Source of the DNA: Prochlorococcus sp. MIT 1307
GTDB taxonomy: Bacteria > Cyanobacteriota > Cyanobacteriia > PCC-6307 > Cyanobiaceae
Direction of reading: 5' to 3'
NCBI RefSeq assembly: GCF_034092395.1
Contig: NZ_CP139301.1
Coordinates: 1,488,001 to 1,552,000, forward strand
Length of the DNA stretch: 64,000 nt
Shown: positions 4,301 to 7,138 of the stretch, one piece after another
Layout of the letters: each line of letters begins with the position of its first letter
How positions within the stretch are numbered: position 1 is the stretch's first letter
The notes under the pieces: generated by a model
What the model was told of the DNA's origin: nothing
What the model saw: the letters and a program-made list of their open reading frames with translations, nothing else
Database searches by the model: none
Position numbers and translations under genes: made by a program

Positions 4301-4602
4301 TGCAAGCCTTCTGTCAAATGACTTGTCTTGTCATTAGTTCTTTGGTGCATGTATTGGGTAGGTTCTCCTTCAATGATCCTGCTGATTCGGGAGAGAGCAA
4401 GACCTGTTTCATTCCTGGGTAATGAATATGAGCAAAATTGATTTCTTGGACGATGGTGATTTTGAAAATTGATGAGGTGGCTTGGAAATGGATGAGTGAG
4501 TGATCAGAGCTTTTGTGGCTCCAATCCTTGTTTGATGTTCAGATTCTTTCGGGCTAGATCGATGAGAAAGTTCGAACAGCTCTTCTTGTGAGACTGATGC
4601 TT
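4301..4602. other. Gene-free stretch before terminator-like hairpin
   Basis: I see no credible coding frame. The sequence ends in a terminator-like hairpin at 4603-4650, so an unrecognised plus-strand transcript (possibly an RNA gene) could end there. No known RNA family was recognised. Confidence 0.35.
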
Positions 4603-4650
4603 AAAAAGGCATCCAGTTATCTACCAGTGAGCAAGCAGGATGCTTTTTTT
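4603..4650. terminator. Terminator-like hairpin with flanking A and T tracts
   Basis: GCATCC (4609-4614) pairs with GGATGC (4638-4643). The stem extends through a G-T pair into AAAAA (4603-4607) against TTTTT, giving a helix of about 12 bp with a 23-nt loop and T7 at 4644-4650. The flanking A and T tracts could make it work in both directions. No recognised gene ends just upstream. Confidence 0.5.
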
Positions 4651-4710
4651 AGCCTTTTGTTTGCAGATATTTCATACCACTCGCTGACAAATACTCATCA
4701 AAGCATTAGA

Positions 4711-4777
4711 ACATGTATACGACACTCCTCACACAAGTTTGTCGGTATGGGCGTTGCTCGATGAGGACGCCCTTTTT
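4711..4777 (+). ncRNA. yfr1: Yfr1-like small RNA
   Basis: Positions 4724-4734 read ACTCCTCACAC, the ultraconserved unpaired core of the cyanobacterial sRNA Yfr1. About 15 nt downstream is a textbook intrinsic terminator: GGGCGT (4749-4754), a 12-nt loop, ACGCCC (4767-4772), then T5. The total is about 60-65 nt, matching known Yfr1 RNAs. Here the core sits in a 15-nt loop (4725-4739) closed by an 8-bp helix (4717-4724 with 4740-4748, one bulge). In the usual structure it lies between two hairpins. Known Yfr1 regulates outer-membrane porin mRNAs by antisense pairing through this core. The 5' end is estimated. A 103-aa frame starting inside it at 4713 is not believed. Confidence 0.72.
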
Positions 4778-5462
4778 CATGCCTGTTCTTCTGGCCCTCT
4801 ATCTCTATCGATGGATACCTTGCGATAATTCAGGTTTGAATCGCTCATGCCATACATGTATCCGCACTCTCTTGGGTGGTGACAATAAACAGGAAGTACT
4901 GAATGAAAAATGGAAGAGATTTGTTATTCCAGCAATGATGCAGATGCTGGGTATAAATACTCTATTTATGAGAAGGAATGAGAGGCAAGCTATTAGGCAG
5001 AGAGTATTCCTTGTATCTAATTGAGTCACGACTTTCTTGGAAAATATCAACTTGACGTTCAGTGGCTTGATGTGAAGTACTAATTACCTCGTAACCAATA
5101 ATTTGTTGACTGATTTTTTCTTTCAAATCGTCTGTTTCTTGAAAGATGATTGAACCTTGTTTACTAAGGCTTTTCCTGTCTTGTTTGGATTGCTGGAGCT
5201 CTTATAACGAACCTTTGGGTGGTTTGTACAGCAATAAATCCTGACTTACGTATCCAAGGATTTTTAGATGGTGGGTATCTTTGAGCAAGATGATCTGGAT
5301 TGGTCCAGTCAGAGAGTATCTTTTTGCGCGTTGGTAGGTAAGAATTGGATCTATAGGTCTACTCAGTTGCGAACTGACTTAGCTACCGGCTACTTACCGT
5401 GTCAATTAGGAAGAGAGATTTAATAATCGAGTTTCTGCAGTTGATTTGCGGGAAAGGTAAGG
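4778..5462. other. Gene-poor stretch, 0.7 kb
   Basis: Several short frames exist here. They include a 51-codon plus frame at 5268-5423 and an open minus frame between about 5200 and 4969 that lacks an ATG. None has recognisable features or a good start. It may include gene remnants or leader sequence for the downstream LpxB-like gene. Confidence 0.4.
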
Positions 5463-5533
5463 AGGCGGCACCCAGATTCGAACTGGGGATAAAGGATTTG
5501 CAATCCTCTGCCTTACCACTTGGCCATGCCGCC
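5463..5533 (-). tRNA. trnC: tRNA-Cys (GCA)
   Basis: Read on the minus strand this is a complete 71-nt cloverleaf. The acceptor stem is GGCGGCA/TGCCGCC with discriminator U. The D-arm contains AAGTGGTAAGGC, the anticodon loop reads TTGCAAA (anticodon GCA), and the T-arm contains GTTCGAATC. CCA is not encoded. It lies antisense to the region where the next plus-strand gene must start. Confidence 0.97.
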
Positions 5534-6868: not shown

Positions 6869-7138
6869 ATGGCACCTATTGAGGATCATCTCTATATGAA
6901 ACTTTGTGCAGAATTGGCTAGTTGTTTAAGTATTAGCCTTGCTTCTGCTAGAAGAAAAGTTGAGTTGGTTGCTGCAAGAGATGGCGTGAAAAATTTGAAT
7001 AACAAAAAAGATATTGCTGAGCGTCTACTGAAAGAGGCCCGTTCACATAAAAGTTCAGGGGATGTTGAGGTAGCTGCCAAATTAGATGAGTTGTTAAGAG
7101 CATTGGCAGAGGAAGAGAACTTTATGGTGGAAGATTGA
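6869..7138 (+). CDS. Small conserved cyanobacterial protein, 89 aa
   Basis: This is a soluble, helical, charged protein. It shows a conserved-looking core SISLASARRKVELVAARDGVKNL (about residues 21-43) followed by ERLLKEAR and a C-terminal acidic helix. It has no membrane segment or known catalytic motif. It resembles small conserved proteins seen across cyanobacteria, but I cannot name a function. It follows the LpxB-like gene on the same strand after 57 bases. Confidence 0.75.
   Translation: MAPIEDHLYMKLCAELASCLSISLASARRKVELVAARDGVKNLNNKKDIAERLLKEARSHKSSGDVEVAAKLDELLRALAEEENFMVED

Follow-up and report, generated by a model that had tools for sequence, protein, structure and literature searches.

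The 64,000-nucleotide stretch of DNA analysed here (the window) carries, at positions 4717 to 4777 of the plus strand, a putative Yfr10-type sRNA of about 60 nt, which matches R1, a covariance model made from 26 homologues, at 4718-4777 (91.4 bits). It is flanked on one side by purM and the genes at 1306-2007 and 2110-2277, and on the other by a tRNA-Cys gene (anticodon GCA; 5463-5533, minus strand), the gene at 6869-7138 and a ribonuclease D-like gene. The 5′ end of the RNA was placed from the promoter spacing and by comparison with Yfr10 of MED4, whose 5′ end lies 7 nt before the core (PMC2518516). The core itself, ACTCCTCACAC (4724-4734, plus strand), is the presumed seed, and a motif scan detected it once in the window. 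Across the genome (2,032,419 bases in one contig), two exact copies are present, one of which belongs to Yfr1, and a reversed control pattern occurs once. Such an 11-mer is thus at chance level (about one exact copy is expected per 2-Mb genome), so that the motif alone is little proof.

The original prediction described an exact core followed by a terminator, giving an RNA of about 60-65 nt, and placed the core within a hairpin loop. Both statements agree with our results. The core is followed on the same strand by an intrinsic terminator, GGGCGTTGCTCGATGAGGACGCCC with five T residues (4749-4777), whose stem contains a bulge and an invariant inner helix CTC/GAG. It is enclosed by a 5′ hairpin (CGACA/TGTCG) in which 4720-4724 pair with 4740-4744 around a 15-nt loop (4725-4739); this stem shows compensatory changes, and folding assigns unpaired probabilities of 0.65 to 1.0 to the core from its second base onward. 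Taken as a single sequence, the sRNA folds only mildly better than its shuffles (z −1.5). A putative promoter on the plus strand, CTGACA (4684-4689) and TAGAAC (4707-4712) separated by a 17-nt spacer, precedes the sRNA, and an alignment of 42 upstream regions revealed an information peak, AGGAGTAGAACAGAA, at a fixed distance just 5′ of it. Strict sigma-70 and terminator pattern scans gave no match at the sRNA locus, because the −10-like TAGAAC breaks the last-base rule and the terminator stem is bulged. Just upstream of the promoter, a second terminator-like hairpin (GGCATCC...GGATGC followed by seven T; 4605-4655, plus strand) would end an unknown transcript; a similar stretch is present in the genome G004, which lacks the sRNA.

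A BLAST search with 241 bases detected the piece around 4700-4785 in 23 of 60 relatives, often in multiple copies. In the same-genus genome G006, the 86 nt of 4700-4785 align with 89.5% identity, and the adjoining non-coding DNA is mostly unalignable. The alignment of 26 copies (A1) is characterized by an invariant core and two helices, with 98.9% of the pair cells kept. Double compensatory changes affect 6 of the 14 pairs, a level reached by none of 500 shuffles and by none of the slid controls. Covariation in the 5′ stem includes CG/GC and CGAGA/TCTCG, and the window terminator has a compensatory change of its own, from C-G to U-A (columns 39/52). Conservation in G006 and covariation place the observation above chance and, as far as sequence can tell, the sRNA is real, conserved and previously unannotated; comparison with related strains thus bears out the conservation of both core and terminator. 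Within the terminator, the pairs of the inner helix CTC-GAT-GAG (A1 columns 42-50, window 4757-4765) are invariant and the outer pairs vary; this helix is partly complementary to the CGAGCAG of Yfr2. R1 has matches in 56 of 251 genomes, which cover 30 of the family's 59 genera, and the number of copies per genome reaches seven.

The original prediction interpreted this locus as a divergent, missed or moved Yfr1. The two RNAs do share an identical 11-nt core, a similar length and a 3′ terminator. The Rfam Yfr1 model (RF01116), proposed as a check, found no match in the window and a better one elsewhere: a canonical Yfr1 at 739,874 (62.7 bits), immediately preceded by guaB and followed by trxA. 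The neighbours of the window sRNA are indeed other than guaB and trxA, as had been pointed out. Furthermore, the core of Yfr1 is unpaired between two stem-loops (PMC2190773), whereas that of the window sRNA lies in a loop whose closing stem covaries. Yfr1 is thus a separate gene of the same genome, and it occurs together with an R1-type RNA in many others; this coexistence already refutes the identification of the window sRNA with Yfr1, to which we give hardly any credence. As the original prediction stated, Yfr1 is missing from some low-light strains, namely SS120 and MIT9211 (PMC2190773).

The architecture corresponds instead to Yfr10. Lambrecht et al. (2019) distinguished Yfr1, with its core between two hairpins, from Yfr10, with its core in a loop on a stem, and described Yfr10 as otherwise poorly conserved in both sequence and synteny; according to these authors it precedes Yfr2 in the genomes of high-light strains, and it was detected in SS120 and WH8102 as well (PMC6778093). 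The core ACUCCUCACAC, its position in a hairpin loop and a 3′ intrinsic terminator are all present in the window sRNA. The best relevant Rfam match at the locus is Yfr10 (RF02362), with 18.7 bits against a gathering cut-off of 43, for a model built on high-light strains in a family whose conservation outside the motif is reported to be very low. The two groups are bridged by the copy G010:C1:1390617, which is recognised by Rfam Yfr10 above its cut-off (43.9 bits) as well as by R1 (29.3 bits); we take the miss by RF02362 to be a limit of the model and not a defining trait. For the comparisons with reference strains, we take G177 to be MED4, G017 to be SS120, G107 to be MIT9211 and G100 to be MIT9313; among these four identities, that of MED4 alone is confirmed, by its Yfr10 coordinates. 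As a positive control, Rfam Yfr10 matched G177 at 346661-346738, the coordinates published for Yfr10 of MED4 (PMC2518516).

About 15 of the copies examined are followed, on their own strand and after 70-130 nt, by a Yfr2 homologue (RF01701 Cyano-1 or its motif), an arrangement also found in MED4, with Yfr10 upstream (PMC2518516). Rfam models detected no Yfr2 adjoining the copy in the window. We conclude that the window sRNA is an unannotated relative of Yfr10: the kind is known, and it is this member, together with the broad low-light distribution, that the curated model misses. Tandem Yfr10-Yfr2 pairs were observed in several low-light genomes (L080, L102, L092, L111, L108, L091, L085 and L079), where most Yfr2 5′ ends read GTGAGGAGT, a perfect 9-nt complement of the core, the high-light type being GTGTGTAGGAG. 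A recurrent element, TTTGCTTTAGCGATAGAAAAGTA, was noticed downstream of several copies without Yfr2 (L103, L107 and L106_5497).

Gene order points to a common origin of the window copy and the Yfr10 of SS120. Both flanks of the window sRNA surround an R1 copy at five other loci (L097, L076, L098, L105 and L100) and are partly shared at four more (L086, L081, L103 and L088), the orientation of the sRNA relative to the flanks being inverted in L088. A purM...tRNA-Cys slot with an R1 orthologue is found, among others, in the 1,751,080-bp (SS120-like) and 1,688,963-bp (MIT9211-like) genomes. SS120 holds the motif twice (PMC2190773), and two exact motifs were seen in the SS120-like genome. As one of them lies inside a reading frame of more than 300 codons, the R1 copy in the slot most likely corresponds to the Yfr10 reported from SS120 and, by synteny and elimination, would be the orthologue of the window copy.

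The genome containing the window encodes four Yfr2 homologues, each of which starts with GTGAGGAG, a perfect 8-nt complement of CTCCTCAC. The predicted duplex between the sRNA loop and Yfr2 has an energy of −15.3 kcal/mol, and among 1000 shuffled versions of the loop, 4 to 9 do as well; this separation was obtained with the loop alone, duplex energies computed for the whole RNAs showing none from their shuffles. The terminator loop CTGCTCG also complements the CGAGCAG of Yfr2, but we do not claim this second contact because CTACTCG replaces the loop sequence in about half the copies and Yfr2 has no matching change. In MED4, Yfr10 binds ppa through UCCU and is displaced by Yfr2 (PMC6778093). 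In the window genome, neither of the two ppa 5′ regions offers the sRNA a convincing pairing site, and a search for SLH porins found no match in this genome. In a relative (L168 13573, G212:C11), one sRNA copy is divergent from a gene whose product, by eye, resembles a Som-type outer-membrane porin.

The hairpin loop would hold the core ACUCCUCACAC open, allowing it to pair with GAGGAG-type sites in mRNAs and to alter how these are translated or how stable they are. Yfr2-family RNAs, which carry at their 5′ end GUGAGGAG, a perfect complement of the core, would in turn pair with the sRNA and act as a sponge. By analogy with Yfr10 of MED4 (PMC6778093), we infer that the window sRNA is transcribed, that it regulates targets and that it is subject to such a sponge effect. 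We thus regard it as very probable that 4717-4777 (plus strand) encodes a trans-acting Yfr10-type sRNA with Yfr2 as its sponge, orthologous to the SS120-like Yfr10 in the purM...tRNA-Cys slot.

In genomic islands, R1 copies are often neighbours of genes for DNA recombination. Among 28 genomes with R1 copies, we surveyed 34 matches to PF00239 (serine recombinase) and 21 to PF05930 (AlpA): 10 of the former and 8 of the latter have a divergently oriented R1 copy at most 400 bp upstream. By chance, about 0.01 would be expected genome-wide, or 0.2 if all copies and genes were confined to a 100-kb segment of each genome. Both figures assume independence among the copies, which does not hold: one closely related group accounts for six of the recombinases. 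The association involves recombinases of at least three groups plus AlpA, with the R1 copy always on the same side, and the spacing is nearly constant (106-112 or 265-300 nt). Small PF00239 recombinases divergent from an sRNA copy, 124-300 nt apart, were noted at L092, L088, L077, L165, L110, L103, L089 and L104. Clusters of three to five copies, both intact and degraded, were also seen within 4-20 kb of island DNA at L108 (G108:C2), L109 (G027:C6), L106 (G082:C10) and L110 (G014:C33); in these clusters, AlpA (PF05930) is head-to-head with an sRNA at 106-112 nt. The islands carry sulfotransferases, TPR proteins and an ion channel, and some of their sRNA copies are degraded.

Short resolvase-like remnants are present in the window as well. 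A remnant of 27 amino acids similar to the C-terminal end of PF00239 serine recombinases (4372-4452, minus strand; 63% identity, E about 5e-5) lies upstream of the sRNA and is divergent from it. On the other side, IGYEVISTSHQATERQVD (5007-5099, minus strand) is a possible, weak remnant of a resolvase N-terminus (E 0.009-0.05), in a region where 72 nt of DNA are 79% identical to the corresponding place of G010. These resolvase-like remnants, the many degraded copies in the islands of relatives and the link to recombinase and AlpA genes could all indicate that the window sRNA is a relic that came with a serine-recombinase island and is now functionless and decaying. A decaying element would hardly be expected to retain core, stem and a compensated terminator, as the window copy does amid DNA that is unalignable within the same genus, nor to persist in the same slot in several genera, and we consider this scenario very unlikely.

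A different reading of the same association is that the element serves mainly as a recombination site, or as a terminator or promoter acting in cis on the recombinase island, and not as a trans-acting RNA. Its divergent position beside PF00239 or PF05930 genes at near-constant distances would fit such a role, as would the invariant inner helix of the terminator, CTCGATGAG, and the existence of truncated copies. The invariance of the core and its complementarity to Yfr2 argue for a trans-acting RNA, and the literature documents Yfr10 as a genuine transcript in both MED4 and SS120. Partial copies break at different places, which led us to reject one crossover point for recombination inside the sRNA and also speaks against the cis-acting reading; we judge the latter unlikely, if somewhat less so than a functionless relic. 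PRE1, reportedly the repeat of Coleman 2006, was considered as an explanation, as were tycheposons. Scans of phage records and viral contigs, the latter with one exact 20-mer, found no match to the sRNA and thus give no evidence for carriage by known viruses.

Retaining a trans-acting Yfr10-type sRNA as our preferred interpretation, we tentatively suggest that the mobile islands of low-light Prochlorococcus contain this sRNA in multiple copies, often in tandem with Yfr2. The sRNA would lie head-to-head with genes for serine recombinases or AlpA and be propagated together with them, and it may control their activity or label their insertion points; the window copy would then be a domesticated single-copy survivor. 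This possibility falls somewhat short of an even chance. To our knowledge, no link between this sRNA and recombinase or AlpA genes has been described, and the connection of a Yfr10-type sRNA with island mobility is probably new. If true, it would couple a network of core regulation by sRNAs to the turnover machinery of the islands, and it is the part worth following. Rfam treats Yfr10 as a high-light sRNA; with R1, its range within the family widens to 30 genera, and the model offers a means to annotate this type of RNA. The sampled R1-carrying genomes of the genera g11, g17 and g63 gave no Yfr1 match. Since all sampled genera without a Yfr1 match, including the SS120-like and MIT9211-like ones, carry R1 copies, a role of Yfr10 as a substitute for Yfr1 becomes a testable idea.

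Among known RNAs, Yfr10, Yfr12 and Yfr18 of MED4 (RF02362) share with the window sRNA the core in a 5′ hairpin loop, preceded by a short leader of some 7 nt, a 3′ terminator and, in many relatives, the position upstream of Yfr2. They differ in the sequence outside the core, in the neighbouring Yfr2 that the window copy lacks, and in the terminator, the conserved inner helix CTCGATGAG of the window type being absent in MED4. Yfr104 of MIT9313, which carries the Yfr1 motif in a strain that also has Yfr1 (PMC6778093), shares this motif with the window sRNA; the 2,410,873-bp genome contains R1 copies at 1475614 and 1018042. Finally, the presumed Yfr10 of SS120 has the purM/tRNA-Cys slot, the fold and the core in common with the window sRNA and differs in its shorter loop, its GGACA/TGTCC stem and its TATAGA-type −10 box, in a strain without Yfr1, whereas the window genome encodes both RNAs.
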